64,000 nucleotides of DNA from Malania oleifera (lineage: Eukaryota; Streptophyta; Magnoliopsida; Santalales; Ximeniaceae). Made by a program: the position numbers and the translations under genes. The notes under the pieces were generated by a model, which was not told where the DNA came from, ran no database searches, and worked only from the letters and a program-made list of their open reading frames with translations. Location of the stretch: positions 31,673,032-31,737,031 of the forward strand of contig NC_080420.1 in the NCBI RefSeq assembly GCF_029873635.1. The letters run 5' to 3'. This document shows, in pieces, positions 4,277 to 46,464 of the stretch. Numbering within the stretch: position 1 is the first letter of the stretch; each line of letters starts with the position of its first letter.

Positions 4277-4308
<32 letters not shown>

Positions 4309-12754: not shown

Positions 12755-12948
12755 AAGGTATACTCAGTATGGGGTAGGAAAATTTGTCTAGGGAGTTTTG
12801 AAATTGAGTTGGTCTAAATTACGCAATGTAATTATGCAGTTATATTTTCATATTTTATTATATGTATTGCATATGCAATGAATTAATAGATCCAATTTCT
12901 GTAGGAATTCACATAACAATATTTTTATTGTTAAAATAGAAAAAAAAT

Positions 12949-16793: not shown

Positions 16794-17078
16794 GGAGAGA
16801 TATGGCTTTACATGTATTCTCTAGGGATTTGTAAATCAATATCAAATTGCTTGTGTTATGGCTTGTATGGTGTTCTCTTACATGAATAAAATAAGTAGTC
16901 TCTATTTTATCATTGAACATAAATGTTTCTTGCCTTCCTGATCCCTTAGTGTCTATATTAATATTTCATGATTATGAGTGGTTTTTGAGATTTATAAGAT
17001 GCTCACGTTTGCACGTTTGAACAACTGATTATTGGTTGACTTTGTTGGGGAGAGCCTTGACGAGTGCCGCGTGGCCCG

Positions 17079-17212
17079 TTAGTTGAGTTTAATCTGGGGG
17101 TCCGTGAGACAGTGCCTTCAGCTCCTTCTGCTTGCACAATCCAAAGCAATAAATGCTCTTTGATTCTTCATCCTGAATCACTAGAAAACCTGAATTTGGG
17201 CCATCCTTTGCT
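17079..17212 (-). pseudogene. DUF1262 exon-1 fragment (copy A)
   Basis: The minus strand reads GPNSGFLVIQDEES followed by CFGLC, matching residues 27-48 of the intact protein at 25,652. About 80 bp including the start region, present in copy B (34,115-34,195), is missing here. No downstream exon follows. It is an older partial paralogue, not a product of the A/B duplication. Confidence 0.8.
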
Positions 17213-19612
17213 TGACCGTCCGATTATGTAATGTCGGGTAGTCATGAATATTAAAGAGTATGTGTATTATGTATAAAAATTAAAGAGTCATGAGGGGTTA
17301 TATATAATTTTGGGTTCTCATGAACATTGAATGGTAGTTGTAATGTGTACAAAAATTAATGAGTGTCGTGGGTGACTACTTATAGTCATAGTAAACGTAG
17401 TTTTGCACAAGTGTTATATTTTGTAAATTACTCATAACGGTGTATCTAGGTGCATGAATTTCGGACCTTCAATTTGAATTTAGGTGAATTTTGACAACTT
17501 TCAATATAATTTTATATTATATTTTCATCTAAATTTAATACAAATTCAAATTTAAGTCTCTCCAAACATAAGGTAAGTGTATATTTGTAATCTTTGGATA
17601 AAGTAAACCTCTTAGGCATATATACCAAGCATGGTCACCTTAATTTCGTCAAATAGTAAGATTACGGTTTGAAGTATTGATATTAGGATTTAGATTTAAA
17701 TTTGTGTGATTTTGGATTTATATTAAAATTAAAGAGAGCCGACATGGGCGGTTATTTATAGTGATAGTTATTATATTCATGGGCAGGTGTTATATCCATT
17801 AAATTACTCATTAATTATAATTTGATTTTGATTTTTAACAGCTATAAATGAAAATATGAGGGTACTTTTGAAATATATAAACATTAAATTCAGTTCTTTT
17901 GTGTTACAAGAATCCAAGTGCTCCTTGGAAGGTTAAGAGACCGACTCATCCAGTCATGAGAGATAAGAAAATAGTCGAAGCTATTTCATATAATAATTAA
18001 TTAATAAATAAAAGCTTGAAAAAATTATGAATTGGCTAATAAGATGAATCGGTCCAAAGCACAAATAATTAATTTATATAAATTTGTTTTTTTAATTTAT
18101 TTAGTATTTTATATTTTAGACACATAATGATTGAACTTTATAATTTTAATTTTTAAAATATGAATTTTGAAATTTTTATTATAATATGTTTGATAAGTTA
18201 TTTAAATTTAAAGATTGAATTATTTTTTAATTTGTTTTAAGATGTGCTTATCCATTTGATTTATATGATAATTATATATAACAAACATTTTGCAACACTC
18301 TAATTATGAAAATAAATATTTTATGATTTATTAGTAATATTTTTTTTGTTTTTCATATATTTTTAATTTTTAATATAATTATATAATTATATTTTCGCTA
18401 TGATATGACTTGTTTTGTCTTGTCAAATCGTTGATCAATCCAAGAAATAATTGAGTTTTAATTATCATTGATCTATGCATCTATTTATATTTATAAATAC
18501 TAGTAATGTGAAATATTTTTGAAATAGAATACCCGTATTGATATTATAAATAACATGCAATTTTTTATAATAGACTTAATAGTATTAGTTCTTATCTAAT
18601 TTACATCTAACTTAGGAGAAAATAAAATCAATTTAATTGTGAATAAACATTTAAAGTATTTTTATTGTTTTCTTCTTTATTCGGGAAAAAAAATAAACTC
18701 ACATAAATAATTGTTGCATAAAGGTTAATAATTAATATCATATATTTTTTCGGAAAAAATATTTTATATTTTCTTTTAAAAGATATAACATTTATCTTTA
18801 CAAGTAAACCTAATAAATGCATAAAAGTTAGCTAATCTACTTTTAACCTAATAGAAAATAAAATAAAATAAATTTAAAATGAATACTTATTACATTTACT
18901 CTATTGATTTGATTACATATACTAAAAAGATTGACATGTAATATATGTTTCCATATGGGTATTTTAATTCCCAAGTAACTCTTGTAACATTCATAATGTC
19001 CAATAAATTTAATTTACTATACTAAAAACATTAACATATAATACATCGTTCACATGGACTAAAATTTGAATATTGAATTTCATACAAAGTAATTGAATTT
19101 TTCACCCTAACTATATTAATATTAATTTTTAAATTTTAATATTTTATCTTATTCACATCCAACTTATAAAATACAGATAATCAAATCCTAAACAAACAAT
19201 TATAATTTTATATATCCTTTTATAGGTTAATTTTTTTTTCTTAACTCACATTTAATAAGTTCTTTTTCTTCTAATTTGATGAACGCACTCCTCGCACTAA
19301 AGGGTTTTGCATACAAATCTTTTTATTATATATTGCCCTCACAAGACCCCTAATAGAAGGCCTTTTAAAATCTTTCCATAACACCATTCACTTATAAATA
19401 TTCAAATTACCAAATGCAATATGGTGCCACGTTGTGCATGGGAACCAATAGGTCAAAAGTTTGTACTTGTGTACTTTGTATTCATTTTGTTTAATTTTTT
19501 AAGTATCCATTAAATTAGATTGATGAGTTTACTATTTAGATTGTGCATTCATCAAACCAAATAAGTTATCTTTCTTCCATTTAAGCATGGATTTCATTTG
19601 GACATGCATAGG
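17213..19612. other. AT-rich intergenic spacer (copy A)
   Basis: No gene seen. It aligns with 34,200-36,614 almost throughout. The part near 17,905-17,955 (AAGTGCTCCTTGGAAGG, then GACCGACTCATCCAGTCATGAGA) resembles the 5' flank of the intact DUF1262 genes (about 25,885-25,930), so it is probably the relic promoter of the exon fragment. Confidence 0.7.
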
Positions 19613-20133
19613 TGTCACGGTCTGACTATTTTCACACTCTTTTGAAGGGCTATGCGGCGCTAGTTAAAGTACTTGTGCTTAACTAGTCAGCTTATCGTTT
19701 ACTAACATTTATCCATGAAACACTTTCATTAACATTCATTCAAATAGCCGCGGAAATAGTAATCAATTCACGAAAGCCGTGGCAAGCAAGCAGTAAACAT
19801 TGAAGTAAACGTAATTCATTAACAACATCTCCGTTGACATTGTGTGTTTAGCAAGGAAGGCAAGAAAACTAAATACGTTGACAAAAGCTAGTGAGTTTTA
19901 CAATGAGTGATGAACACTCACCCTCTCCTAAAAAAGTTTTTATGTAATTTTCATCCTGGTACTAGGGAACATCAAAGTGACCGAGGAGTTATACTACCTT
20001 ATTTGGCATACAAAGACTCTACTAGTAGAAAATAACCCTACAGTAGTATTTACATGATGGAAACCTATCCCAAGCACACGAGATAAGCAGTCACAGGCAA
20101 GCATAATGTCCTGAACAAGCTTAACTCGTGACA
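19613..20133 (-). repeat. 3' LTR of chromovirus, copy A
   Basis: 521 bp, from TGTCACGGTC to CTCGTGACA. It shares private variants with the left LTR of copy B (for example CTTTTGAAGG and GCGGCGCT). Confidence 0.9.
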
Positions 20134-23100
20134 TTCTCCCCCACTTATGTGGTCGATGTCCTCGTAAACTTTGGCGGTAGGTACACTTCAAGTTTGTCCA
20201 CGAACGGTTGAATATCTTCCGCAAAAATCTAGCTGATTTCTTTGTCATCAAGGCATTTCCACTTCACTAGGAACTTCTGCCGCTTCTTCCTTAAGGATAT
20301 GAACTTTCTGCCTTCAAGGATCTCTTCAACTTCACGTTTGTCTTGTTGCATTATCTTCAACTCTACTCTGTTGGACTGACTTCTGCTCAGGTGAATGGTG
20401 TTGGCGTTGAATGCCTTGAGGCAGCTAACATGAAATACGGTCTTCTCCCTTGATCTGCCCACTCTTTGATCTGCTTAGAAGCTTTCTCTAGATAGGATTG
20501 GGCAAACTCTGTGTTTTGTATCCATTCTCTGGTGAAGATCTATGCCCTAGGGCTCTTTCGTCTATACAGCTCGCCCATCATGTGAGGTAACACCGGTAGC
20601 TAGCCTATAACAAGCTTAAAAGTGCTTTTATTGGTTATTGAGCTCCTTTGGGCTTTGCCAAAGAACGGAGCGACATCAAGTAGTTGCACACCATTCTTCT
20701 GGTTGTTGTTGACAAAATGGCGCAAGAACTCTTTTAGTAGCCCTCTGAATCTCTTCATTTGTCCATCTGTCTATTGGTGATAACTCGAAGAGATGTCAAG
20801 ATGTGACCTGAATATCCTGAAAATTCTATCAAGAAGTTGTCAGTGAACATTAAGTCTCGGTCACAAATAATAACTTGGGGAACACCCAAATATTTCACAA
20901 TAGTCACAAGGAATAATTATGTCATCTCCTTTGCCAAACAATACTTTGGTGCGGCCATTAAAGTACCATACTTCTTCCGCTTCCCCTTGTCTTGTTGGAA
21001 AGTGAGACAAGTTTTGGTATAATCAACCACATCATCCCACGCGTGCGGCGAATAATACCTTCCCAATAGTCCTGTCATTAGAGTCATTCTTTGAGAATAC
21101 CCTTCAACGAACTTCCTGCAATATCTAGTAAGGCCAAGAAAGGAACACAACTCTTTTACTATCGTGGGGATCTTCCGTTCTTGAATCATCCTTACCTTCT
21201 CCATAGCCCTCCGGATATGACCTTGTTCAACCATATGACCAAGGAATTTGTTCCCCCGCTCAGCGAAAGAGAACTTCCCTTTATTCCCATCTAGAGTGTT
21301 TCCCCTTAGCCTGTTGAACACTTTCTGTAGATGCTCTTCATGTTTCCTCTAAAACAACACCAATGCTCCCAACGTTGCTTTGGAAGGGCGAACGCATCCC
21401 GCTTCCAATTCATCAAGCTATTTCCTCAACTTTACTATCTTAAGAGGCGCAATTCGACATGCCCTTTGGCAGGTGGTTTCACTCCAGATAACAACTTGAT
21501 CTCATGCTCCACAGTTCGTCGTGAAGGCAAATTGTGAGACAGCTTATCCGGAAACACCTCCTTGTACTCATCCAACAACACTTGGATGGTCGTAGACTCC
21601 AGCTCTTGGCCTACTTCTTTTTCTACCACCACTGTGGCTAGACGTGTCTGCTCACCCTAACCCAATCCTTCATTGAGTTGTGTGACTAAAAGGGACTTCC
21701 CATCAACTCCTTTCGTTGCAACGACTTGCACCATGCACAAGTGATCTCCCATCAGACACAGGGAACCAACTGAAGGCATCAGCACTGTCCTCGTTCCCCT
21801 TAGGAACTCTATTCCTAGAATGACTAGAAAGTTATCCAATGACACCACTGTGAAATTCGCATGAACTTCCCATTGTCCAAGCTTTACTGTCACTTGCTTG
21901 GCTGCTCCCAGAGTAGGCTGGGCTACAGAGTTAATTGCTTTAATGCATCCTATATCTTCTCTAAGGGTAACTTGAGTCTCCATGCTTCCAACTGCGAAAC
22001 AAAATTGTGAGTAGCCCCCGTATCCACCATAGTGCGGATACTCTTCCCATTGATCTTCAAGTCCACAAACATTAATCCATTTGCTCGTGTAACTTTCGGT
22101 GTTTTTGCTTGCTTTTCCAATGTGCTCACCAACCGCACTGAACCCACCCTAGGGGCATCATCCTCTTCCTCCTCACTCTCCACAATTTTTCCCGAAGTGG
22201 AAGCTTGTAAGGCATTGAGTAATCCTTGTGTTGACACTCACTCACTATGTGAGATCCACCACACAAGTAGCACGAAATTTTACTCTTCCCCTTTCCATTG
22301 GGTATGTTGAACCCTTGAGACGACGAAACTTCCTTTAAGGTTGATGATTTAGAGTCGGCTCCCCCACTCTTGGGTTTGCCTTTCTTGAAAGACTCTCCAT
22401 TGTTTCCCTCTCCATCAAACTGTTTGGATGAAGTAGTGTCATCACCAGCGTAGTTAGTCAAGTGTTTTGCAGCAGCTTGTGCAATTGACAAGTCTTGAAC
22501 TCTTTGCCTATGAAGTTCTGTCCTTGCCCACAATTTCATCCCCTCAAGAAAATAGAACAACTTTTCCTGCTCCGACATATCCCGAATATCCAACATTAAA
22601 TCTAAAAATTGTTTCACATATTCTCTAATCGACCTCGTATGCTTGAGATCTCTCAGTTTTATCCTTACATTATACTCAACATTCTCAGCAAATAATTGTG
22701 TCTTGAGCTCTCTCTTTTCAAGTCTATCCAACTTTTGATTACACAACGTCCAGTTTCAATTTCTTGGTACTTGGTACGCCCCCACAGTTTGGCATCATCA
22801 ATTTTGCCTATTCTGAGGCCATCCTCACAACGCGAAAGTATTGCTCCACATCAAACAAGAAGTTTTCTAACTCCTTCGCATCTCGGGCACCCCCATACGT
22901 CTTGAGTTCTGGTATCTTGGTCTTGCTAACTCCCGGAGTGTTGGAGTTCCCATAGCAAGAACTATCAGATTCACCTTTGCATCCAGATCAGCCATCCGCG
23001 ACTGCAAAGTTTCAACTGTGTGGCGAAAGTCCTCTGACATGTCGCCTATCAAACCTGCTTGATGTTTTTGTGATCCCATCACTTTATCAACAAGTTCTCT

Positions 23101-23273
23101 CATCTGGGCCACCTCCACGGCCACAGTGTTGGTTGTTGCCTCAACTTGTGCTTCTAGCATGTTGATCCTCTCAGCATTGTTTGGTGCCATAGTCACTTAT
23201 CAAAGCTTTCCAAATCCCACAATGAAGGCAATCGAATTCACGTAGTAACTCAACCTTGGGCTCTAATACTAAG

Positions 23274-23791
23274 TGTCACGGTCCGACTATTTTCACACTC
23301 TTGTGAAGGGCCGTGCGGTGCTAGTTAAAGCACTCTTGCTTAATTAGCCAGACTATCGTTTACTAACATTCATCCACGAAATACTTTATTTAACATTCAT
23401 TCAAATAGCAGCGAAAACAGTAATCAATTCATGAAAGTCGTGGCAAGCAAGCAGTAAACATTGAAGCAAACGTAATTCATTAACAACACCTTCATTGACA
23501 TTGTGTGCTTAGCGAGGAGGCTAGTAGACTAAACATGTTGACAAAAGCTAGTGAGTTTTACAATGACTGATGAACACTCACCCTCCCCTAAAGAGGTATT
23601 TATATAATTATTATCCTAACACTAGAAAACATCAAAATGACCGAAAAGTCATACTGCCTTATTTGACATACAAAGACTATACTAGAAAAAAATAACCCTA
23701 CACTAGTGTTTACATGATAGAAACTCATCCTAAGCACACGAGATAAGCGGTCACAGGCAAGCATAATGCCCTGAACAAGCTTAGCTCGTGA
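23274..23791 (-). repeat. 5' LTR of chromovirus, copy A
   Basis: About 518 bp. It shares private variants with the right LTR of copy B (GTGGTGCT, TAGTAGACTAAACATG). Its outer end is slightly eroded compared with copy B. Confidence 0.88.
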
Positions 23792-24036
23792 GGCTTAACA
23801 TCTAAGTAGACCACTTGACAACTTCTCCACCAAAAAGGAAGGAACATTTTAGTTTACTTAGTACAATGACTTTGCACATTGTTCATGAGTTTTGTACAAA
23901 CATTCTTCATTTGCATTAGGAGGTAGAATTTCATGCGTGTCAACGATTTTACAACATTTGCCACATATATATACATAGGAAACATCATAAATTGGATCCT
24001 TTGACAGTACTCCCAAGGCCTAGAATACAAAATATC

Positions 24037-25652
24037 TTATTCCCATTTGCTCTTAATCTGGTGAGTATGCTTGAAACCAAAGCTCAATACCAAGCTTCCA
24101 TCCATTCTTTTCAACACAAAACTCTCAACCAACACATATGAACCAAATCTTCTCCACCCACCCATCCCTTCCAACTCCTCCACCCTCTCCACCCTCACTT
24201 GCCCATTTGCTCCCCCAACCCACCCAGCCCTTTCTTCTTCCCATTTCATTTTCTCCACAATTGCTGAACTCAAACCCACATGCCCTTCTTGACCTCCCAT
24301 ATTGTGAGAACTCCTAAACCACACCACCCCATCTGCTGCATTCACTTCTACGACTTTGCTTCCAGCAAATGAGACCACTTCTGTCTGAACAACAATATTC
24401 ACACCAACAGAAGTACTACTTCCACCATAACTGTTCTCACTCTCAAAAATCCTTTCCCATTTTTGCTCTAGTGTCATCTCATAGTACATAGATCTTTCCA
24501 CCTGGTTCCTCAGTGTTCCATCTCTAACAAACATGAATGGGCAGTACCACTTTCCCACCACCACAGCTTCCGACCTCTCGCAGGATAACGGGAAGTTGAA
24601 TTCCGGAAGGCGAGCGCGGAGAGTACTGTCGACGCCTGGTGCTTCACCTAACTCGTAATTGCGGGGCGTCGAGGTGTAAATTTGCCAGCCTTTCCTCCTC
24701 AAAAAGTATGGCGGAAACCCATCTGGTGCTACGGATTTGCCAAGAAACTGACCCCTGGAGCTGCAGGCTGCATCATAAGGAGAAATCTCTACCTGTTGAT
24801 ATGTGTTGTTGGGATCCAATGGTCTTGGTTTAACATCTCTCACGCAGCTACAAAAACAGCAGCTGCCCATGTCCTCCTCCTTAGAATTTGTATATGCTTC
24901 CCTATAAATTGCCAAGTTTCAATACACCAAGGCTTATTTAATTCCTTGAATACAAATTCAAGAGGAAGGCTTAATATATGCTTTCAAACATCAAACATAA
25001 AATTCACTTTCATGTTCCATATGTCTTGGACTTATAAGAGATCTTAAATTTAAATTTGTGTAAATTTAGAATAAATGTAATATAAAATTGCATAGAATTT
25101 TATCCAAATTTATAATCCAAGGTCATATTGGAGAACAAATCAGTTTTTAAAATAAAAATTCAGCTCAAGTAGCATATGTATGTTATTTCTGCATAGATCA
25201 GATAAGGCAAAGATTAAGCAAAGCTGGCCAAGTGCCATAATTAATATACGGAACACACAGAGAAGATCAGAACATATAATACATACATACACAAATTTAT
25301 CCACTGATTATGAAATGCATACAAACCCTTTATGCTTTCCGTGGGGTACCATAGCATGGTACCGGTTAGATGACAGGGGCTGGTTAAGCACCGGGATGAG
25401 GATAACTTCATTACGGCTGACGCTTTCGTTTTCTCCGGCGCCGGTGGAGTAGCGAACGGTGAGCTTCTTGTTTTGGGGAAAGGGCAGGTCGTGGAGGTAA
25501 CTCTCCCTGCACAGCCCAAAGCAACGCGTCGTCTCCGACTCCTCATCCTGAATCACCAGAAACCCTGAATTGGGGCCGGCGACGTCGGCCGGGGGGGTGG
25601 ACAGAGAGGCAGGGAACTTTCTGTACAGAGAAAGAGGCCTGGTCACATACAT
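24037..25652 (-). CDS. DUF1262 family protein, copy A (two exons, 396 aa)
   Basis: Exon 1 is 25,652-25,327 and exon 2 is 24,901-24,037; the 425-bp intron has GT-AG ends (GTTTGT...TTATAG) and is phase 2. The join gives GKHKG|EAYTNSKEED, the expected DUF1262 sequence. Landmarks are VTRPLSLYRKFP at the N-terminus, GPNSGFLVIQDEESETT (27-43), CFGLC (44-48), NQPLSSNRYHAM, a CCFCSC cluster (123-128), VKPRPLDP, KSVAPDGFPPYFLRRKGW, RARLPEFNFPLS, VVVGKWYCPFMFVRDGTL and the C-terminal SLVLSFGFKHTHQIKSKWE. Length and order match plant DUF1262 proteins of about 400 aa. No signal peptide or membrane span is evident. Biochemical function is not established. No stop or frame break is seen, so it is probably expressed. 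The chromovirus lies about 245 bp beyond the stop in the same orientation. Confidence 0.93.
24902..25326 (-). other. Intron of DUF1262 gene, copy A
   Basis: 425 bp, AT-rich, GT donor at 25,326-25,325 and AG acceptor ending at 24,902. It has the same length as the intron of copy B. Confidence 0.88.
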
Positions 25653-25736
25653 ATTGATTGATCGGTCGATGGCTCTGTGCAGGGTATTTTGACTTGTGGT
25701 GTGTAGAGAAAGAAAACCATGCTCATCCTTCAGCTG

Positions 25737-25747
25737 TATATATATAG
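25737..25747 (-). promoter_or_regulatory. TATA box of DUF1262 gene, copy A
   Basis: The minus strand reads CTATATATATAC about 85-95 bp upstream of the ATG at 25,652, followed by a plausible short 5' UTR. Confidence 0.65.
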
Positions 25748-25821
25748 AGGAATGCAGTTTGTCAAATGCGTTATGATAGGACAGGTGGCTGTTCCTGCTG
25801 CTGTGGTGTTGCGTGTAAGAC

Positions 25822-25889
25822 TAAGCAAGCAGAATTGTTTGAAAATGGCACCCTCTAAGCAAGCAGAATTGTTTGAAAATGGCACCTTC
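25822..25889 (-). repeat. 34-bp tandem duplication in the promoter of copy A
   Basis: AAGCAAGCAGAATTGTTTG with its following ATGGCACC occurs twice in a row here and only once in copy B (about 45,320-45,355). It lies 170-240 bp upstream of the start codon. Confidence 0.9.
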
Positions 25890-25949
25890 TTGGATGGTTC
25901 AGGGACCGACTTATTCAGTCACGAAAGCTGATAAGAAATTACACACATA

Positions 25950-26890
25950 CGAATGAGATGTTGGCGGACCTGGGGCTGACCTTGCATGTCCATCTATATT
26001 TAAAATATATATGAAAACTTTGTTAGATAGGTTATATAAATCCTTTTTTTTTTTTTTGTTGTTGTTAATTTATATGATTTTCTCATTTTAAATTATTTTA
26101 ATTCAACCTATACTCCTTTTATTATAATTAATAATAATTCACTCATTTCCTATATATTTCAAATGTTTAAATAAGTTTTTTTTTTTTTTTTTTAATTTTT
26201 GACATAGAAATTGAGAAAAAAAAAATAAAAAAAACATCTACTATATTAATAAACAAAAAAAATTGACTTTACACATTCTTAAAATTTTAGAAAGGAAACA
26301 AACTCCAAAAATTTTAGGGAGGAAACAAACTCCAACTAGAACACCGATGTGGTACCTGTTGTGGCATCTTGAAGGCCAACATTGGAAAAGGGAAGGATGA
26401 CGAATATCCGAATCGCCTCGATTGAGTGGCGAACTTGATATATTATGTAGAAGTTGGAACAATGTACTTAGAAATGGGTAAGTTATAAACAATGGAGTCA
26501 TCACTAACCTGTTTTTGTCCTATGTACAGTTAAAACACCTACTTAATGTCCCATTAGTTCATTGGTCACTAAGCTACTCCTAGGTTCTGGAAAACCAGTG
26601 GTCAATGGTCTAGATCACCAAGAAGTTGGATTCAGGAGTACAATTATGAAAATGGAAGGTATTAACACCTTTTCACACTTATCCAATGGATGATACCTTA
26701 TTTGTCTTAGTTTACCTTTTAAAAAAAAATCGATCATGATTCCAATTCTTCCATTTTATTAAATTACATGACCTTTAAATGGACAACCCTATGAAAGATA
26801 AAGACTATCCTCACCTTAGGATCTTTAAAAATGAGCTAAGGACACAACTCCTAATGATCCGTTTGAGAATTATTTATTTAATGTATTTTT
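25950..26890. other. Intergenic sequence (copy A)
   Basis: AT-rich, with T runs (26,047-26,057 and 26,178-26,193). About 26,240-26,890 aligns with 45,570-46,180 of copy B. No gene recognised. Confidence 0.6.
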
Positions 26891-28141
26891 TGTTGAGAAA
26901 TCCACTTGTGAGCTTGTCTCATATTGAAAAATTAGAGTGGCTGATGGGTGTTTATATACATGGTTGGACCCAAGATCCAATAGACTTAAACTTTTGGGTT
27001 AAGTTGGTGTTTACCCATGTGTATCAAGCTCACTCATAGATTTCTCCAATCCTAACAAGTGGTATCAGAGCCGATGGTTCGTAACTAGGTCAGCGACATC
27101 TTAAAAGTTGAGACGTGAAACTAATTCTTCTAATGTGTTGGAACTCACAAGTGAGGGGGAGATTATTGAGAATTCCACTTGTGAGCTTGTCCCACATTGG
27201 AAAATTAGAGTGGATGATGGGTGCTTATATACGTGGATGAGTTGCAGTCGCGTGCCAAATTCATTACATCAAAAACACAATTATCACAGGCTAAAATAAT
27301 CCATTAAATACCACGTGCTCATTATCCCATTAGAATGCAATAACTCTTTTCCTTCTATATCTATTTTATGTATCTATAAATAAGAACATTTGTGTTGTGT
27401 GAAGTGTGCTAGTGAAGTGAGTGAGTGAGGAGTGTGAGAGTGTTGAAGGTGAGAGAGGGAGAAAAGTGTGAGAAGAGTTGAGTTGAGTGTGTGTGTCTCC
27501 TTCTCTTGTTTTTCTCCCAAGTTATAGTATATTTGGTGTGCTCAGTGGACGTAGGTCAGATTAGACTAAATCACGTAAATCTGGTGTTCTTATATTGTGT
27601 GCTTATTTTGCTTTTAAGTGTGTGATTATTGTTCCTAGATCCCTAACAAGTGGTATCAAAGTTGATGGTTCGTAACTCTAGGTTAGCAACATCGTAAAAG
27701 TCGATACGTGAAGCTAATTCTCCTAACATGTTAATAGTTGGAGGACCAAGTGTGTGATTGAGGCCAATAAGGATCATCTAGGCTTGACATGGATCCGAAT
27801 AGGGTCAAGATATGGGAGGTAGGATTGGTTCGAAGACATGTGGAATGTAATCCGAGGCACGTAAGGCACCAGTGGTAAGGCCCACTTGAGCAACTGTTGG
27901 GGAAAGCTTACTCTCATAAAGGAGATGCTTTTCGTTCAAGGGGTAGTGGTTGGAACTCACAAGTGAGGGGGAGATTGTGGAGAATTCCACTTGTGAGCTT
28001 GTTGCACATTGAAAAATTAGAGTGGATGATGGCTGCTTATATACATGGTTGGACCCAAGATCCAATAGACTTAAGCTTTTTGGTCAATTTGGTGTTCACC
28101 TATGTTATCAAACCCACCTATAGGCTCCTCCGGTCCTAACA
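26891..28141 (+). mobile_element. TRIM-type miniature LTR element with three LTR-like repeats
   Basis: Absent from copy B, where the flanks are continuous; TTTTT borders both ends (26,886-26,890 and 28,142-28,146). Outer LTRs are 26,891-27,057 and 27,976-28,141 (about 166 bp, TGTTGAG to CTAACA). A third LTR-like block lies at 27,164-27,648 with extra sequence. Each of the first two is followed by a tRNA-Met primer site (TGGTATCAGAGCC at 27,060 and TGGTATCAAAG at 27,651), and the later two are preceded by GTGAGGGGGAGATT. No protein is encoded. The repeated LTR-internal-LTR layout suggests a tandem TRIM formed by recombination or double insertion. Confidence 0.88.
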
Positions 28142-28438
28142 TTTTTCATCATTTTTGAAGTATACATTACCTGATGTTTAGCTTATTAGGAAAAGTTTAT
28201 AGGACAAAGACTTGTCACCTCTAGTCCTCAAAGGCATGCAAAGACGTAGCCTTCAAGACTGGTGAAAAATTCCTTATGAGTTTGATTTATTTGATAACAT
28301 ACAAAATAGGCAAGGAAAATACACGTGAACAAACAAATTGAACATATATACAATCACGTAATTTATATAGACATTCATCCAAAATCTATATACAAGGTGT
28401 AAACCAAAATTCAGAGAGTCTAATAGAACCACTAATGA

Positions 28439-34181: not shown

Positions 34182-34199
34182 GGTGACTTGGAGAGTATT

Positions 34200-36614
34200 T
34201 TTATTTGCTTGACCGTCTGATTATGTAATGTCAGGTAGTCATGAATATTAAATAGTATGTGTATTATGTATAAAAATTAAAGAGTCATGAGGGGTTATTT
34301 ATAATTTTGGGTTCTCATGAACATTGAATAGTAGTTGTAATGTGTACAAAAATTAATGAGTGTCATGGGTGACTACTTATAGTCATAGTAAGTGTTGTTT
34401 TGCACAAGTGTTATATTTTGTAAATTACTCATAACGGTGTATCTGGGTGCATGAATTTCGGACCTTCGATTTGAATTTAGGTGAATTTTGATAAATTTAA
34501 ATATAATTTTATATTATATTTAATTTAAATTCAATACAAATTCAAATTTAAGTCTCTCCAAACATAGGGTAAGTGTCTATTTGTAATCTTTAAATAAAGT
34601 AAACCTCTTAGGCATATACACTCAGCATGGTCAACTTAATTTCGAATAGTAAGATTATGGTTGGAAGTATTGATATTAGGATTTGGATTTAAATTTGTGT
34701 GATTTTTGATTTATATTAAAATTAAAGAGAGCCGGCATTGGTGGTTATTTATAGTGATGGTTATTATATTCATGGGCAGGTGTTATATCCATTCAATTAC
34801 TCATTAATTATAATTTGATTATGATTTTTTAACAGCTATATATGAAAATATGAGGGTACTTTGGAATATATAAAAATTAAATACAGTTCTTTTGTGTTAC
34901 AAGAATCCAAGTGCTTCTTGGAAGGTCAAGAGACCGGCTCATCCAGTCATGAGAGGTAAGAAAATAGTCGAAGCTGTCTCATATAATAATTAATTAATAA
35001 AAAAAAGATTGAAAAAATTACAAATTGGCTAATCAGATGAATCGGTTGGTCCGAAGCAGAGATAATTAATTTATATAAATTTGTTTTTTAATTTATTTAG
35101 TATTTTATATTTTAGACACAATGATTGAACTTTGTAATTTTAATTTTTAAAATATGAATTTTGAAATTTTTATTTTTTATAATATGTTTGACAAGTTAAT
35201 TTAAATTTAAAGAGATTGAATTATTTTTTAAATTTGTTTTACGATGTGCTTATCCATTTAATTTATATGATAATTATATATAACAAACATTTTGCAATGC
35301 TGTAATTATCAAAATATGTATTTTATGTTTTATTAGTAATATTCATTTTTTTTCATATATTTTTAAATTTTTTAAAATAATAATATAATTGTATTTTCGC
35401 GATGATATGACCTATTTCGTCTTGTCAAAGTATTGGTCAATCCAAGAAATAATTGCGTTTTAATTATCATTGATCTATGCATCTATTTATATTTATAAAT
35501 ACTAGTAATGTGAAATATTTTTGAAATAGAATACCCGTTTCTATATTATAAATAACATACAATTTTTTATAATAGATTTAATAGTATTAGTTCTTATCTA
35601 ATTTACATCTAACTTAGGAGAAAATAAAATTAATTTAATTGTGAATAAACATTTAAAGTATTTTTATTTTTTTCTTCTTTATTCGGGAAAAAAAATAAAC
35701 TCACATAAATAATTGTTGCATAAAGGTTAATAATTAATATCATATATTTTTTTGAAAAAAATATTTTATATTTTCTTTTAAAAGATATAACATTTCTCTT
35801 TATAAGTAAACCTAATAAATGCACAAAAGTTACCTAATCTACTTTTAACCTAAGAGAAAATAAAATAAAATAAATTTAAAATGAATACTTATTACATTTA
35901 CTCTATTGATTTGATTACATATACTAAAAAGATTTACATGCAATATATGTTTCCATATGGGTATTTTAATTCCCAAGTAACTCTTGTAACATTCATAATG
36001 TCCAATAAATTTAATTTACTATACTAAAAACATTAACATATAATACATCGTTCACATGGACTAAAACTTGAATATTGAATTTCATACAAAGTAATTGAAT
36101 TTTTTACCCTAACTATATTAATATTAATTTTTAAATTTTAATATTTTATCTTATTCACATCCAACTTATAAAATACAAATAATCAAATCCTAAACAAACC
36201 ATTATAATTTTATATACCCTTTTATAGGTTAATTTTTTTTTCTTAACTCATATTTAATAAGTTCTTTTTCTTCTAATTCAATGAACGCACTCCTCCCACT
36301 AAAGGGTTTTGCATACAAATCTTTTTATTATATATTGCCCTCACAAGACCCCTAATAGAAGGCCTTTTAAAATCTTTCCATAACACCATTCACTTATAAA
36401 TATTCAAATTACCAAATGCAATATGGTGCCACGATGTGCATGGGAACCAATAGGTCAAAAGTTTGTATGTGTGTACTTTGTATTCATTTTGTTTAATTTT
36501 TTAAGTATCCATTAAATTAGATCGATCAGTTTACTATTTAGATTGTGCATTCATCAAACCAAATAAAATGTCTTTCTTCCATTTAAGCATGAATTTCATT
36601 TGGACATGCATAGG
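34200..36614. other. AT-rich intergenic spacer (copy B)
   Basis: Near-identical in layout to 17,213-19,612. No gene seen. Confidence 0.7.
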
Positions 36615-37135
36615 TGTCATGGTCCGACTATTTTCACACTCTTTTGAAGGGTTGTGCGGCGCTAGTTAAAGCACTCTTGCTTAACTAGCCAGCCTATCAT
36701 TTACTAACATTCATCCATGAAACACTTTCATTAACATTCATTCAAATAGCAGCGGAAATAGTAATCAATTCATGAAAGTCGTGGCAAGCAAGCAGTAAAT
36801 ATTGAAGCAAACGTAATTCATTAACAACACCTCCATTGACATTGTGTATTTAGCGAGGAAGGCAAGAAGGCTAAATACATTGACAAAAGCTAGTGAGTTT
36901 TACAATGACCGATGAACACTCACCCTCCTGTAAAGAGGTTTTTATGTAATTATCATCCTGGTCCTAAGGAACATCAAAGTGACCGAGGAGTTATACTGTC
37001 TTATTTGGCATACAAAGATTCTACTAGCAGAAAATAACCCTACACTAGTATTTACATGATGGAAACTCATCCTAAGCACACGAGATAAGTGGTCACATGC
37101 AAGCATAATGCCTTAAACAAGCTTAACTCGTGACA
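36615..37135 (-). repeat. 3' LTR of chromovirus, copy B
   Basis: 521 bp, closest to the left LTR of copy A. Confidence 0.9.
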
Positions 37136-37971
37136 TTCTCCCCCACTTATGCGGTCAACGTCCTTGTAGACTTTGGCGGTAGGTACACTTCAAGTTTGTC
37201 ACGAACGGTTGAATATCTTCCGCAAAAATCCAGCTGAATTCTTTGTCATCAAGGCATTTCCACTTCACTAGGAACTTCTGCCGCTTCTTCCTTGAGGATA
37301 TGAACTTTCTGCCTTCAAGGATCTCTTCAACTTCACGTCTGTCAGGTTGCACTGTCTTCAACTCTGCTCTGTTGGACTGACTTCTGCTCAGGTCATTAGT
37401 GTTGACGTTGAATGGCTTGAGGCAGCTAACATGAAACTGCAGTCTTCTCCCTTGATCTGCCCACTCCTTTATCTGCTTAAAAGCCTTCTCTAGATAGGCT
37501 TGGGCAAACTCTGCGTTCTATATCCATTCTTTGGTGAAGATGTACGCTCTGGGACTCTTTCGCCTGCACAACTCGCCCACTATGTGAGGTAACAACGACA
37601 ACTGGCCTATAACAAGCTCAAAAGTGCTCTTGTTGGTTGTTGAGCTCCTTTGGGCTTTACCATAGAACAGAGCCACATCAAGTAGTTGCACACCATTCTT
37701 CTGGTTGTTGTTGACAAAATGGCGCAAGTACTTTTTTAGTAGCCCTCTGAATCTCTTCATCTATCCATCTGTCCGTTGGTGATAACTCGAAGAGATGTCA
37801 AGATGTGACCTGAATATCCTGAAAAATTCTATCAAGAAGTTGTCAGTGAACATTAAGTCTCGGTCACAAACAATAACTTGGGGAACACCCCAATGTATCA
37901 CAATAGTCACAAGGAATAATTGTGTCATCTCCTTTGCCAAACAGTAGTTCGGTGCGACCATGAAAGTACCA

Positions 37972-40373
37972 TGTAACACCCTGATCCTGAGGGGCCTGGG
38001 ATATTAACTTTTTACTACTAATTTACAGCGGAAGCAAAATAAACTCAATTTTTATTAAACCAGAGCACTAATTATCCATATTACAATCATTTATTTCAAA
38101 AGAAGAATAATTACATAAGCATAAATATCCGGCATCATACTAATATTTCTAAATAATCTTTATTTTTCTATCCCCACCCGTATGCTTGCTAAGCCTGATT
38201 TCCGACATGTCCTTCAAAGTTATCTGAAATAAAATATGATTGGGGTGAGACGACGCTCAGTAAGTAAATAAAATTATTATTAGTGTGTGGCCAAAAATGA
38301 GCTTTTAAAGAATTTCGTAAAACAATATTTAATACTATAACTTCAAGACTGCTTTTAGAATAAACATAAATTTAAAAATTTCTGCATAAAACTTTTGTCA
38401 TCAATTTCAACAGTAAATTTTTACAATCATATACTATAACTGCTAAATTAAACTTTTAACTTTAAAACTGGAAAAATATTTAATGATAAACATACATATA
38501 CTTTTTCTTATACGTTTTCCTTAGATCGTCATTTAAGTACCAGAATGATCCTTTTCACGTAAAATTACACTTTTCCTTCAAATCATCAGTAACTTTGTAC
38601 ACGTAATTAAATATGTATAAACATATATTATAAAAACCACCCTTAGGCCTGTTTGCTGTAAGTCATGTTTACCCCCATGACTGGGTTGTGCGGTCCGAAG
38701 ACTGGACTTAGCTAGCTGGCCAACCAAACTAAATCAACGTACGTAAACTTTAAGTGAGATTTTCCTTATTAAGTCCTGGTCCGGAACCAGGTGTGCACTC
38801 AGGAGAAATCCACTAACATAAATAACCACTCTGTAAACAGTGTGGGTGCACTTTGATCCGTATAAACTTTAAGTTGTGGTACCGAACATCTGTAACTTTG
38901 AACTTTCGTTGCCATAAGGGGTTTTAAAATCATTTTATTATAATTTATGCAATTTAAAAATAATATCGGGAAAATCTCATCTTTACTCATATTTTCATAA
39001 AAATGCAATGTAGAAATAAACTCATGCCACACAATTTTTGTGTTAAAAATATATATAATTTTATTTTTGAATAGAAAGAAATGCTGAAAATTTACCCGAG
39101 AAGATTGGAACATTTCTTAACCCAAAAATAGATACAAGTATATTAAAGATAGAACTGGTATAATTAAATATGCATAAAAATAAACTCATAGAAATTTTTT
39201 GGAACTAAGTAACATAATTAAAATTTACTTACCTTCTTCTTTTACCGCGTGCTACGAACACAATAACTATCTTTAAAAAAATGAGATCGGAAAGAGTGGG
39301 TGAGTGAGAACTTATTCAAAAATTCTCTCTCCACCACAAATTCTTTCACTCACTACTTCTTCTCTTCCTTGGAAAATTGTTGTGAAAAATGAAGGTTGAG
39401 AGCTCCCTATTTATAGGAAAATTTTGGAAAAGAAATGAAATTTATGAAAGTATGGGGATATGGGTGAAATTATAATTTTTTTTTAAAAAAAATTAAAGAA
39501 TGGGCAAGCTATGGGTTGAGTATGGGATGGGGATAGAGGCCATGTGGGAGTGCTTGCCACCATTCCCATTAAATAAATTTTTAATTAATCACTTACCTAA
39601 TTAATTAATCAATTAGTTAATCAATTATTTTATTATTTTATTATTTTTCTTAATCATTATTATCATTATTATTATCATTGTTATTAATTTTGAACCATTT
39701 TTAGTATTTATTTATTTTATGATTAATTTTTGAATAAGAATTAAATTTAAATTTTGAAAACTCATGTGGGCCCCACATGGTCTTGTGGGCCCCACACAAC
39801 TTCGAGACCCGAATGGATCCTACGTAATTCGAATAACTCTTATATGATTTTATGCATCCTACATAGCTTTGAGATTTGTGTAAACCTCCATACGGCTTCG
39901 GGACTCATGTGGGCCCCACACAGTCTTGTGGGCCCCGCATAGGATATCTATATTATTATTATTTTATCATATATTTTTTCAAATTATATCAGTTAAAACA
40001 TTATTTTATGTACTTATTTATGTATATAAATAGTGTCTTGTGGCTCCGGGACTCATGTGGACCCCACATAGTCTTGTGGGCCCCACATATGATACATATA
40101 TTATTATCATCTTATTATGTATTTCTACAAATTATGTCTGTCAAAACACTATTTTATGTATATATACAGTGTCTATCCTGTTTATCCTGTGAAATTCCAT
40201 TTTGACCAGACCGACCTCCAGGGAACGACTGAGCCGCAATGGTCTCTGAGCACTCGCTTAGACAAGGTCTTTCTTAAACATCAAACATGGAATCAAGGAT
40301 CCTACAGAAAAACACTTCTGTATTGATATTAACTTAATGACCATTTTTATTATTTTATTATTATTGTACTTTA

Positions 40374-40419
<46 letters not shown>

Positions 40420-40429
40420 GGTCATCACA
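37972..40429 (-). mobile_element. Solo LTR nested in the copy-B chromovirus
   Basis: 2,458 bp, TGTAACACCC to ATCACA, flanked by TACCA (37,967-37,971) and TACTA (40,430-40,434). Copy A is continuous at this site, which proves the insertion. The minus strand ends GGGTGTTACA, and a segment at 38,670-38,720 (TGACTGGGTTGTGCGGTCC) matches the solo LTR at 9,543. It contains a cluster of GTGGGCCCCAC palindromes (39,766-40,086) and a TA run (40,379-40,417). Confidence 0.92.
39766..40086. promoter_or_regulatory. Cluster of TCP-like GTGGGCCCCAC palindromes in a solo LTR
   Basis: Perfect copies at 39,766, 39,785, 39,909 and 40,076; one-mismatch copies at about 39,928 and 40,056. They come in three pairs spaced about 142-148 bp apart. 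GTGGGNCCCAC is the consensus known for class I TCP factors; binding here is inference. Confidence 0.65.
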
Positions 40430-42766
40430 TACTATACTTCTTCCGCTCCCCCTTATCTTGTTGGAAAGTGAGACAAGTTTTGGTATAATCAACCACATCA
40501 TCCCACGCGTGTGGCCAATAATACCTCCCCAGTATTCTTGTCATTGGTGTCATTCTTCGCGAATACCCCTCAACGAACTTCCTGCAATATCTAGTAAGGC
40601 CAAGAAAAGAACGCAACTCCTTCATTGTCGTGGGGATATTTCATTCTTGAATCATCCTTACCTTCTCTATAGCCCTCCAGATATGACCTTGTTCAACCAA
40701 AATGACCAAGGAATTTGTTGCTCCGCTGAGTGAAAGAGAACTTCCCTTTATTCCCATCCAGAGTGTTTCCCCTCAGCCTATTGAACACCTTCCGTAGATG
40801 CTCTTCATGTTTCCTCTGAAAAATACCGATGCTCCCAACGTTGCTTTGGAAGGGCGAACACATCCCACTTCCAATTCATCAAGTTGTTTCCCCAACTCTA
40901 TTATCTCAAGAGGCGCAATCCGACATGGCCCTTTAGCAGGTGGTTTCACTCCAGATAACAACTTGATCTCATGCTGCACAGTCCATTGTGAAAGCAAATT
41001 GTGAGACAACTTATCCGAAAACACCTCCTTGTACTTATCCAATATCATTTGGATGGTTGTACGCTCCAGCTATTGGCCTACTTCTTTGTCTACCACCACC
41101 GTGGCTAGACGTGTCTGCTCACCCTAATCCAATCCCTCATTGAGTTGTATAACTGAAAGAGACTTCCCATTAACTCCTTTTGTTGCAACGACTTACACCA
41201 TGCATGAGTGATCTCCTATCAAACACAGGGAACCAGCTGAAGGCATCAGCACTGCCCTCGTCCCCCCTTAGGAACTCCATTCCTAGAATGACTAAAAAGT
41301 TATCCAATGGCACCGCTGTGAAATTCGCATGACCTTCCCATTGTCCAAGCTTTACCATCACTTGCTTGGCTACTCCCAGAGTAGGCTGGTCTACAGAGTT
41401 AACTGCTTTCATACATCCTGTATCCTTCTCTAACGATAAGTTGAGTCTCCATGCTTCCAATTGCGAAACAAAATTGTGAGTAGCCCCCGTATCTACCATA
41501 GTGCGGATACTCCTCCCATTGATCTTCAAGTCCACAAACATTAACCCATTTGCTCGTGTAACTTTCAATGTTTTTACTTGCTTTTTCAATGTGCTCACCA
41601 GCCACATTGAACCCACTCTTGGGGTATCATCCTCTTCCTCCTCGCTCTCCACAACTTTTCCAGAAGTGGAAGCTTGTAAGGCTTTGAGTAATCTTTTGCG
41701 TTGACACCCACTTACTTTGTGAGATCCACCACACAAGTAGCACGAAATTTTACTCTTCCCTTTTCCATTGGGTGTGTTGAACCCTTGAGACGACGAAACT
41801 TCCTTTGAGGTTGATGATTTAGAGTTGGCTTCCCCACTCTTGGGTTTGCCTTTCTTGAAAGACTTTCCATTGTTTCCCTTTCTGTCAAACCGTTTGGAAG
41901 AAGCGCTATTATCACCAGCATAGTCAGTCAAGCGTTCTGCAACAGCTTGTGCAGTTGACAAGTCTTGAACTCTTTGCCTATGAAGTTCTGTCCTTGCCCA
42001 CAGTTTCATCCCCTCAAGAAAATAGAACAACTTGTCATTCTCCGACATATCCCGAATATCCAAAATTAAAGTAGAAAATTGTTTCACATGTTCCCTGATC
42101 GACCCCATATGCTTGAGATCTCTCAGTTTTCTCCTTACATTATGCTCAACATTCTCAGGAAAGAATTGGACCTTGAGCTCTCTCTTCAAGTCTGCCCAAC
42201 TTTCGATTACACAGCATCCAGTTTCAATCTCTTGGTACTTGGTACGCCACCACAGTTTGGCATCATCAACCAAGTACATGGTCACAGTATTCACCTTTGC
42301 CTATTCTAAGGCCATCCTCACAGCGCGAAAGTATTACTCCACATCAAACAAGAAGTTTCTTACTCCTTCGCATCTCAGGCACCCCTATACGTCCTAAGTT
42401 CTGGTATCTTGGTCTTGCTAACTCCCAGAGTGTTGGAGCTCTCCATAGCAAGAACTATCAGATTCACCTTTGCATCCAGATCAGCCATCCGCAACTGCAA
42501 AGTTTCAATTGTGTGGCGAAAGTCCTCTGACATGTCGCCTATCAAACATGCTTGATGTTTTTGTGATCCCATCACTTTATTAACAAGTTCTCTCATTTGG
42601 GCCACCTCCACGGCCACAGTGTTGGTTGTTGCCTCAACTTATGCTTCTAGCATGCTGATCCTCTCAGCATTGTTTGGTGCCATGATCACTTACCAAAGCT
42701 TTCCAAATCCCATAACAAAGGCAATCGAATTCATGTAGCAACTCAACCTTGGGCTCTGATACCAAG

Positions 42767-43287
42767 TGTCACGGTCCGACCATTTTCACACTCTTATGAA
42801 GGGTTGTGTGGTGCTAACTAAAACACTTTTGCTTAACTAGCCAGCCTATCGTTTACCAACATTTATCCACGAAGCACTTTTATTAACATTCATTCAAATA
42901 GTAGCGAAAATAGTAATCAATTCATGAAAGTCGTGGCAAGCAAGCAGTAAACATTGAAGCAAACGTAATTCATTAACCCCACCTCCGTTGACATTGTGTG
43001 CTTAGCGAGGAAGGCTAGTAGACTAAACATGTTGACAAAAGCTAGTGAGTTTTACAATGACTGATGAACACTCACCCTTCCTTAAAGAGGTTTTTATGTA
43101 ATTATCATCCTGATACTAGGAAACATTAAAGTGATCGAAAAGCCATACTGCCTTATTTGACATACAAAGACTCTACAAGTAAAAAATAACCCTACTCTAG
43201 TATTTACATGATAGATACCCATCCTAAGCACACGAGATAAGCAGTCACAGGCAAGCATAACGCCCTGAACAAGTTTATCTCGTGACA
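42767..43287 (-). repeat. 5' LTR of chromovirus, copy B
   Basis: 521 bp, closest to the right LTR of copy A. Confidence 0.9.
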
Positions 43288-43535
43288 ATAAGCTTAACAT
43301 CTAAGTGGACCACTTGACAACTTCTCCACCAAAAAGGAAGGAGCATTTCAGTTTACTTAGTACAATGACTCTGCACATTGTTCATCAGTTTTGTACAAAC
43401 ATTCTTCATTTGCATTAGGAGCCAGAATTTCACACGTGTCAACGATTTTCCAGCATTTGCCACATACATATACATAGGAAACATCATAAATTGGATCCTT
43501 TGTCAGTACTCCCAAGGCCTAGAATACAAAATATC

Positions 43536-45151
43536 TTATTCCCATTTGCTCTTAATCTGGTGAGTATGCTTGAAACCAAAGCTCAATACCAAGCTTCCAT
43601 CCATTCTTTTCAACACAAAACTCTCAACCAACACATATGAACCAAATCTCCTCCACCCACTCATCCCTTCCAATTCCTCCACCCTCTCCACTCTCACTTG
43701 CCCATTTGCTCCCCCAACCCACCCAGCCCTTTCTTCTTCCCATTTCATTTTCTCCACAATTGCTGAACTCAAACCCACATGCCCTTCTTGACCTCCCACA
43801 TTGTGAGAACTCCTAAACCACACCACCCCATTTGCTGCATTCACTTCTACAACTTCGCTTCCAGGAAATGAGACCACTTCTGTCTGAACAACAACATTCA
43901 CACCAACAGAAGTATTACTTCCACCATAACTGTTCTCACTCTCAAAAATCCTTTCCCATTTTTGCTCTAGTGTCATCTCATAGTACATAGATCTTTCCAC
44001 CTGGTTCCTCAGTGTTCCATCTCTAACAAACATGAATGGGCAGTACCACTTTCCCACCACCACAGCTTCCGACCTCTCGCAGGATAACGGGAAGTTGAAT
44101 TCCGGAAGGCGAGCGCGGAGAGCACTGTCGACGCCGGGTGCTTCACCTAACTCGTAATTGCGGGGCGTCGAGGTGTAAATTTGCCAGCCTTCCCACCTGA
44201 AAAAGTATGGCGGAAACCCATCCGGAGCTACGGATTTGCCAAGAAACTGACCCCTGGAGCTGCAGGCTGCATCATAAGGAGAAATCTCTACCTGTTGATA
44301 TGTGTTGTTGGGATCCAATGGTCTTGGTTTAACATCTCTCACGCAGCTACAAAAACAGCAGCTGCTCTTGTCCTCCTCCTTAGAATTTGTATATGCTTCC
44401 CTATCAATTGCCAAGTTTCAATACACCAAGGCTTATTTAATTCCTTGAATACAAATTCAAGAGGAAGGCCTAATATATGCTTTCAAACATCAAATATAAA
44501 ATTCACTTTCATGTTCCATATGTCTTGGACTTATAAGAGATCTAAAATTTAAATTTGTGTAAATTTAGAATAAATGTAATATAAAATTGCATAGAATTTT
44601 ATCCAAATTTATAATCCAAGGTCATATTGGAGAACAAATCAGTTTTTAAAATAAAAATTCAGCTCAAGTAGCATATGTATGTTATTTCTGTATAGATCAG
44701 ATAAGGCAAACATTCAGCAAAGCTGGCCAAGTGCCATAATTAATATACGGAACACACAGAGAAGATCAGAACATATAATACATACATACACAAATTTATC
44801 TACTGATTATGAAATGCATACAAACCCTTTATGCTTTCCGCGGGGTACCATAGCATGGTACCGGTTAGATGACAGGGGCTGGTTAAGCACCGGGATGAGG
44901 ATAACTTCATTAAGGAAGATGCTTTCGTTTTCTCCGGCGCCGGTGGAGTAGTGAACGGTGAGCTTCTTGTTTTGGGGAAAGGGCAGGTCGTGGAGGTAAT
45001 TCTCCTTGCACAGCCCAAAGCAACACGTCGTCTCCGACTCCTCATCCTGAATCACCAGAAACCCTGAATTGGGGCCGGCGACGTCGGCCGGGGGGGTGGA
45101 CAGAGAGGCAGGGAACTTTCTGTACAGAGAAAGAGGCCTGGTCACATACAT
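43536..45151 (-). CDS. DUF1262 family protein, copy B (two exons, 396 aa)
   Basis: Exon 1 is 45,151-44,826 and exon 2 is 44,400-43,536, with a 425-bp GT-AG intron in the same position as copy A. The protein has the same landmarks: VTRPLSLYRKFP, GPNSGFLVIQDEES, CCFGLC (43-48), CCFCSC (123-128), VAPDGFPPYF, VVVGKWYCPFMF and FKHTHQIKSKWE. It differs from copy A at scattered residues: Cys instead of Arg at 43, KEN for RES after CFGLC, IFL for VSR in exon 1, KSS for MGS before the Cys cluster, and FRWEGW for LRRKGW. The frame is open throughout, so both copies may be functional. Function of the family is unknown. Confidence 0.93.
44401..44825 (-). other. Intron of DUF1262 gene, copy B
   Basis: 425 bp, same length and position as in copy A, GT-AG ends. 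Confidence 0.88.
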
Positions 45152-45235
45152 ATTGATTGATCGGTCGATGACTCTGTGCAGGGTATTTTGACTTGTGGTG
45201 TGTAGAGAAAGAAAACCATGCTCATCCTTCAGCTG

Positions 45236-45245
45236 TATATATATT
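45236..45245 (-). promoter_or_regulatory. TATA box of DUF1262 gene, copy B
   Basis: Minus-strand ATATATATAC about 85-95 bp upstream of the ATG at 45,151. It differs from copy A at the 5' edge (CAATATAT versus CTATATAT). Confidence 0.62.
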
Positions 45246-45449
45246 GAGGAATGCGGTTTGTCAAATGGGTTATGATAGGACAGCTGGCTGTTCCTGCTGC
45301 TGTGGTGTTGCGTGTAAGATTAAGCAAGCAGAATTGTTTGAAAATGGCACCTTCTTGGATGGTTCAGGGACCGACTTATCCAGTCACGAAAGCTGATAAG
45401 AAATTACACCCATACGAATGAGAGGTGGGCGGACCTGGGGCTGACCCTG

Positions 45450-46464
45450 CATGTCCATTCTCATTGAGTGCTACGTGACCTATATATTTCAAATGTTTTA
45501 ATAAGTTTATTTATTTATTTATAATGTTTGACATAGCAAATGAGAAAAAATAAAAAAAAAAAAAAAAAAAACATCTACTATATTAATAAACAAAAAAATT
45601 GACTTTACACATTCTTATTTTTTAGAAAGGAAACAAACTCCAAAAATTTTAGGGAGGAAACAAACTCCAACTAGAACACACCGGTGTGGTACCTATTGTG
45701 GCATCTCAAATGCCAACATTGGAAAAGGGAAGGATGACGAATATCCAAATCGCCTCAATTGAGTGGCAAACTTGACATATTATGTAGAAGTTGGAACAAT
45801 ATACTTAGAAATGGGTAAGTTATAAACAATGGAGTCATCACTAACTTGTTTTTGTCCTAGGTAAAGTTAAAACACCTACTTAATGTCCCACTAGTTTGTT
45901 GGTCACTAAGCTACTCCTAGGTCTAGAAAACCAGTGGTCAATGGTTAAGATCACCAAGAAGTTGGATGGTACCTTATTTGTCTAAGTTCACCTTTAAAAA
46001 AAAAAAAAAAAAAACCCGATCATGACTCCAATTCTTCCATTTTGTTAAATTACATGGCCTTTAAATGGACAACCCTATGAAAGACAAAGACTATTCTCAC
46101 CTTAGGATCTTTAAAAATGTGCTAAGGACACAACTCCTAATGATCTGTTCAAGGATTATTTATTTAATGTATTTTTCATCATTTTTGAAGTATACATTAC
46201 CTGACCTTTAGCTTATTAGGAGGAGTTGCTAGGACAAAGACTTGTCACCTCTAGTCCAGATATGCAAAGACGTAGCCCTCAAGGCTAGTGAAAGATTCCT
46301 TATGAGTTTGATTTATTCGATAACATACAAAATAGGCAAGGAAAAGACATGTGAACAAACAAATTCAACATATATACAAACATGTACTTGATATAAACAT
46401 TCATCCAAAATCTACATACAAGGTATAAACCAAAATTTAGAGAGTCTAATAGAACCACTAATGA
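45450..46464. other. Intergenic sequence, end of copy B
   Basis: Aligns with 26,150-28,438 without the TRIM. The empty TRIM site is at about 46,172. An A run lies at 45,552-45,571. No gene seen. Confidence 0.65.

Follow-up and report, generated by a model that had tools for sequence, protein, structure and literature searches.

We analyzed a 64,000-nucleotide stretch of Malania oleifera DNA (the window; positions 31673032-31737031 of contig C4, NC_080420.1), in which a gene of the DUF1262 family occurs in two direct blocks, A and B, together with a chromovirus relic bounded by long terminal repeats (LTRs) and a fragment of a dead paralog, G1. The genome comprises 1.494 Gb in 510 contigs, and the large contigs among those listed (C1-C9, C12, and C13) measure 86-157 Mb. 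Comparing the window with itself pairs 16794-17210 with 33704-34120 (96.2% identity), 17207-20969 with 34204-37972 (93.2%), and 20964-25993 with 40430-45458 (92.5%), followed by shorter pieces up to 28438 in A and 46464 in B. The alignment of the blocks, run as three separate segments cut at the private inserts, contains 647 differences (187 transversions) in 10139 ungapped columns. The blocks are thus collinear, as a reading of the letters alone (the sequence-only reading) had claimed, and with an open 396-amino-acid frame in each copy they bear out its direct duplication of a DUF1262 gene. Both copies include noncoding sequence, as expected of a tandem segmental duplication. Smaller private changes comprise an 87-column gap in A at 17206, further gaps of 135, 60, 25, 10, and 8 columns, and a 34-bp stretch present in the 5' leader of A and absent from B. 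As aligned, the blocks lie 5.3 kb apart, and the 172 kb around the locus contains no N.

Table 1. Features of the duplicated locus, in window coordinates
Feature	Position	Strand	Remarks
Block A as aligned	16794..28438	+	window self-comparison; unit probably extended to at least 29444
Block B as aligned	33704..46464	+	window self-comparison; homology to old repeat W continues to 46481-46484
X 3' LTR in A	16758..17109	+	inserted in G1 exon 1; X 5' LTR begins 32.4 kb left of window
X 3' LTR remnant in B	33704..34019	+	14/318 different from A
G1 exon 1 fragment A	17110..17202	-	residues 26-56; start region missing in A
G1 exon 1 fragment B	34020..34181	-	residues 1-56
AT-rich spacer	A 17207..19608, B 34204-36610	.	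17207-18443 differs 7.2%, 18444-19443 2.7%
Chromovirus relic A	19613..23791	-	LTRs 19613-20133, 23274-23791; gag; integrase zinc-binding and chromodomain matches under cut-off
Chromovirus relic B	36615..43287	-	LTRs 36615-37135, 42767-43287; chromodomain 37155-37517; interrupted by solo LTR
Solo LTR, private to B	37972..40429	-	flanks TACCA/TACTA; empty site in A near 20963, single TACCA
DUF1262 gene A (predicted)	24037..25652	-	exon 1 25652-25327, intron 25326-24902, exon 2 24901-24037; 396 aa
DUF1262 gene B (predicted)	43536..45151	-	exon 1 45151-44826, intron 44825-44401, exon 2 44400-43536; 396 aa
TRIM-like composite element, private to A	26891..28141	+	outer LTRs 26891-27057, 27976-28141; TTTTT both sides
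Old dispersed repeat W	28141..29444	+	continuous across A aligned edge; ~29 bp missing at 28438
Overwritten junction	29445..33703	.	210-bp repeat 29445-29654, element Z ~29650-31252, LTR Y 31247-33703
B right flank	46465..47365	+	first 17-20 bp continue W; parts beyond 46800 may be W downstream portion (weak, three places)

Genes, chromovirus, and private insertions

The gene model is one of four listed splice choices; it yields 396 amino acids and joins KHKG to EAYTN. The copy A protein matches Pfam DUF1262 (PF06880) with 130.6 bits (cut-off 27, E 3.1e-38), and both genes exceed the family cut-off in a DNA search; the protein gave no match to NCBIfam at E 1. All four matches of a whole-genome family search fall in the window and represent the two genes and two stumps, while of 11 matches from a whole-genome protein search, 10 likewise lie on this part of C4, the other being on C7 (E 0.065). 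These two copies are the only intact DUF1262 genes found in this genome, and the family is listed among defense-related genes elsewhere. In Arabidopsis, AT1G13520 is tabulated where priming marker genes are treated (PMC10861594) and AT1G13470 where PRT1 and resistance are (PMC6933115); a rice member is tabulated in a section on salicylic acid (SA)-responsive genes and OsTGA2 (PMC6239283). In one further paper, the family is over-represented among candidates for epidermal traits. Residues 214-262 have a sole PDB sequence match, to a Toxin-10 entry, which is not significant (E 0.1).

The coding sequences of A and B differ at 29 sites, 22 nonsynonymous and 7 synonymous. Nonsynonymous and synonymous divergence per site (dN/dS) is estimated at 0.024/0.028 (NG86), 0.023/0.025 (LWL85), 0.027/0.021 (YN00), and 0.028/0.014 (maximum likelihood). 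Random placement of the differences yields a mean of 7.1-8.1 synonymous ones and creates no stop in 30-36% of trials, and neither gene has an indel against about 2.4 expected (chance 0.09). Because the counts are near neutral and chance alone would often leave the frames open, that both frames are intact is weak evidence that the genes are used. The two copies are drifting apart, with differences of about the kind that neutral DNA would accumulate and few signs of constraint. Polarized by G1, 12 nonsynonymous and 3 synonymous changes fall to B and 5 and 2 to A, with 6 ambiguous and 1 unplaced. We do not claim a faster change of gene B from this (15 against 7, p = 0.13); exon 2 alone gives 13 in B against 4 in A, with 3 ambiguous (p = 0.049).

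Each block carries a chromovirus relic at the same site, with flanks common to both copies. The relic has a pair of LTRs, whose ends are TGTCACGG...GTGACA, and a target duplication that reads ATAGG/ATAAG in B, one letter different; the right edge is eroded in A. Its gag region is matched in both copies and its protease in B, where the two share one open frame (41170-42294). The chromodomain (PF00385) is over the cut-off in B (E 6e-6) and under it in A (0.0011). Of the 79 listed frames, 12 were scanned; in these, reverse transcriptase gave no match above cut-off, and RVT_1 (its tail, E 0.097) and Integrase_H2C2 (E 0.0018) stayed under it. Considering the LTRs alone, divergence between the copies is 8.9% and 9.0% for LTRs at the same end and 10.4% and 12.1% for crossed pairs, and the pair within one copy differs by 12.4% (A) and 11.7% (B). 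Sixteen of the 22 informative sites pair LTRs of the same end, one pairs them by copy, and five pair them crosswise. The same-end pairing and the shared flanks indicate a single chromovirus insertion and rule out independent insertions in the two copies. The chromovirus predates the duplication, as the sequence-only reading held, by a modest margin of age.

Each block also contains one private insertion whose empty site is preserved in the other, again as first described, and both insertions are bounded by 5-bp target duplications. The insert in B is a full-length LTR standing alone within its target duplication. We read it as a solo LTR because of its ends and because a relative of it, 86% alike over ~2.1 kb and located left of the window, ends beside a sequence resembling a primer-binding site (PBS). 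The insert in A, whose empty site in B lies near 46170 with a single TTTTT, resembles a terminal-repeat retrotransposon in miniature (TRIM): it has short LTRs, a PBS-like sequence, a 5-bp target duplication, and no long coding frame. It does not have the simple LTR-internal-LTR structure with matching LTRs, being composite, and its outer LTRs differ at 23 of 166 positions (13.9%). Among seven related loci, chosen as the best matches in the genome, six show the middle part, the internal part, and one LTR, with no matching left LTR within 1.5 kb, and one is a tandem array; other matches look like simple LTR-internal-LTR copies.

The dead paralog and the edges of the unit

The exon fragment that had been noted in both blocks is indeed present in both and derives from an older dead paralog, G1. 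It represents the 5' half of that gene's exon 1, which was cut by an LTR element, X, whose 3' LTR forms the beginning of each block. This assignment follows from the remainder of G1, which lies to the left of the window (negative coordinates) on one strand and in gene order, and from the flanks of X, which continue in frame. Residues 56-112 lie at -32446 to -32615, an intron-exon piece at -44537 to -44633, residues 111-253 at -62507 to -62935, and residues 243-396 at -69078 to -69544. Altogether, G1 is spread in at least five pieces over ~87 kb of C4 (about 31603420-31690240), split by insertions. The other LTR of X spans -32443 to about -32090, and the outer flanks of X are CAGTG (17110-17114) and TAGTG. 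With one target copy counted, the flanks join as KAL-PFPQNKSL, compared with DL-PFPQNKKL in the intact gene. The ordered remainder and in-frame flanks rule out a transposon-captured exon. Compared with gene A, one G1 exon 2 piece gives dN 0.17 and dS 0.56 (NG86) or 0.19 and 0.40 (YN00) over 138 codons, with 2 stop codons skipped; G1 was therefore under constraint during some of its history.

The LTR pair of X differs at 36 of 354 positions, versus 14 of 318 between the 3' LTRs of A and B (Fisher p = 0.005). Recombination between X LTRs was rejected as the route of duplication, as the only X LTR matches in 172 kb are the element's own two and the B remnant. A CACTA-type element of ~33.8 kb (-17966 to 15880) is nested inside X, with GCA on both sides and ends CACTACAAGAAAA and TTTTCTTGTAGTG; it includes a DUF4218 frame at 1016-1498.

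The blocks had been described as aligning end to end, and as an account of the full duplicated unit this does not hold. The aligned ends are not duplication breakpoints, given that the left end of B adjoins LTR Y and the right end of A is a ~29-bp gap inside the old dispersed repeat W. The B left edge, 33704, coincides with the terminus of LTR Y, where 19 of the 86 match rows of the LTR Y family also stop. At the edge of A, W continues as a single match to 28763-28779 in four of six genome loci compared; in an alignment with five relatives, the ~29 bp absent from A are present in four, and the fifth is incomplete there. The stretch 28439-29444 belongs to this dispersed repeat and is not single-copy sequence. 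Pieces of the B right flank recur on the same strand 1.8-1.9 kb beyond W pieces on C7 (82.94 Mb) and C8 (21.75 Mb) and, more weakly (58-66% identity), close behind W on C2 (39.26 Mb); a second C2 locus (130.3 Mb) has no B-flank match except a short AT-rich one. From these matches we conclude, with moderate confidence, that the B right flank is probably original, that some 1-1.6 kb of W may be gone from B, and that in A the duplicated unit would have reached at least 29444. G1 and X support the left native flank of the ancestral locus, and only weak W matches speak for the right one.

Three further features were recorded in the window. An LTR element at 1899-7854 has two LTRs of ~2.6-2.7 kb with 0.7 kb between them, and LTR Y is a relative, 76-82% alike in pieces. 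A tandem array at 12930-14817 has 5.4 copies with a period near 353 bp, and an inverted pair of related segments (51199-53152 and 62048-64000) is 80.5% alike, with retroelement domains in the first segment.

Divergence along the blocks

The divergence of the two blocks, which had been proposed as a check on the duplication, is uneven, with a gene at 2.3% and surroundings at 5-9%. Segmentation separates 16794-19561 (4.9%), 19562-23976 with the chromovirus (8.6%), 23977-25940 with the gene (2.3%), and 25941-28438 with the 5' flank (8.4%). Assuming 2-7e-9 substitutions per site per year, a divergence of 5-8% would correspond to roughly 4-20 million years, a frame only.

Slow divergence of a gene within fast surroundings fits gene conversion and a lower genic mutation rate alike. 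Gene conversion after the duplication, which is compatible with the other readings of the locus, is a possibility that we hold tentatively and at somewhat less than even odds; it would have homogenized the two genes, so that gene divergence understates the age of the duplication. The low segment is flanked by 8.6% and 8.4%, and the low value extends to the intron (8 of 425 positions different; p = 9e-6 against chosen flanks, namely 17112-18443 plus 26149-28438, with the low spacer stretch left out). Gene transversions are likewise few (p = 2e-6 against the chosen flanks and 0.007 against the chromovirus), and the coding sequence shows the lack of constraint noted above. However, the low segment is the likely transcribed unit, where lower genic mutation or fewer methylated cytosines would do likewise, and its step is absent when transversions alone are segmented. 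The AT-rich spacer at 18444-19443 (GC 22%, no known gene) is also about as low as the gene, indicating that local rates vary without one. Comparison with a related genome could separate conversion from lower genic mutation.

A proposed history and its alternatives

Most likely, the duplication is real and a plant tandem duplication of the ordinary kind. We put the probability at roughly 80% that a segment of this large plant chromosome was duplicated in tandem, head to tail. The locus would have begun as a DUF1262 gene pair, G1-G2. A chromovirus would have inserted between the two genes and decayed; X would have split G1 exon 1, and further insertions would have pulled G1 apart. A unit of at least ~11.4 kb, corresponding to 16794-29444 of A without the TRIM-like element, would then have doubled, comprising the end of X, the G1 stump, the spacer, the chromovirus relic, the intact G2, the 5' flank, and part of W. 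Unequal crossing-over and replication error are candidates for the exchange, the junction being overwritten. Later, the solo LTR would have entered B and part of W would have disappeared from it, the junction would have been filled by LTR Y and further repeats, and A would have lost the G1 start region; the TRIM-like element is in A and absent from B. The head-to-tail arrangement, the order of some of these events, and the cause of G1's death are what we infer from the observations above.

Several observations weigh against this history. The divergence of the TRIM-like LTRs exceeds that of the blocks, which duplication followed by insertion does not predict. B has no left part of X, which requires the assumption of an additional loss. 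Segmentation of transversions alone yields a single segment, meaning that mainly transitions underlie the divergence steps, and 5 of the 22 informative LTR sites give the crossed pairing. The W argument depends on weak matches, and the best two B-flank matches (C12 at 10.13 Mb and C4 at 89.86 Mb) are not beside W among the matches listed, at most 40 scored candidates per list. To these points we add the chance of an assembly error, considered last.

The first of them makes the insertion of the TRIM-like element after the duplication, as the sequence-only reading had it, insecure: its outer LTRs are more divergent than the A/B 5' flanks (69/966, p = 0.0055) and the A/B chromovirus (362/4166, p = 0.035). 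Either the element was composite at birth, or it predates the duplication and was contributed by just one haplotype. We regard as doubtful the fuller form of the latter, in which A and B derive from different haplotypes through unequal exchange between homologs and the gene alone was later homogenized. If so, the present differences between A and B would mix old allelic ones with newer ones.

A little less probable still is that B arose as a copy pasted a few kilobases downstream, by break repair with a copied template, instead of head to tail. The 5.3 kb between the aligned blocks and the missing left part of X in B would suit such a copy, but W and identifiable repeats account for the interblock space, and the B right flank may, on weak matches, continue W. 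Very unlikely is a false duplication, in which an assembler joined two haplotypes of one locus in tandem: the join does sit in repeats, where contigs often end, and the gene's 2.3% is within the divergence range of very heterozygous plants, but divergence is 5-9% in the spacer, flank, and element; nonsynonymous divergence per site is about equal to synonymous, which would not be expected between alleles of a single gene under constraint; the join lies precisely at an LTR terminus (33703) shared with other family members; and the surrounding sequence is free of N.

The tandem duplication that we favor can be compared with known systems at several levels. Like the DUF1262 genes of Arabidopsis and rice, the genes here match the Pfam family; they differ in forming a single locus with two intact genes, known from sequence. 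The TRIM-like element shares with TRIM elements LTRs of 166-167 bp, the PBS-like TGGTATCAGAGC, the lack of any frame of at least 150 amino acids, and the target duplication, and differs in that LTR and internal parts are repeated inside it and its outer LTRs have diverged. The chromovirus relic has the chromodomain, gag, and protease matches of chromoviruses (chromodomain Ty3/Gypsy elements) and a PBS-like sequence adjoining its LTR, but it is short and decayed, at 4.2 kb without the solo LTR. In a study of five plants, pseudogenes were proximal or tandem duplicates more often than functional genes were (PMC7935947). With plant tandem or proximal segmental duplications that carry nested LTR retrotransposons, the locus shares direct orientation, near-adjacent copies, and older shared with younger private insertions. 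No difference from them is categorical; here, the junction is overwritten and a dead paralog extends alongside, and the insertion record is unusually legible: insertions have empty-site controls, a quartet of LTRs gives the order of events, and a dead gene is followed over 87 kb.

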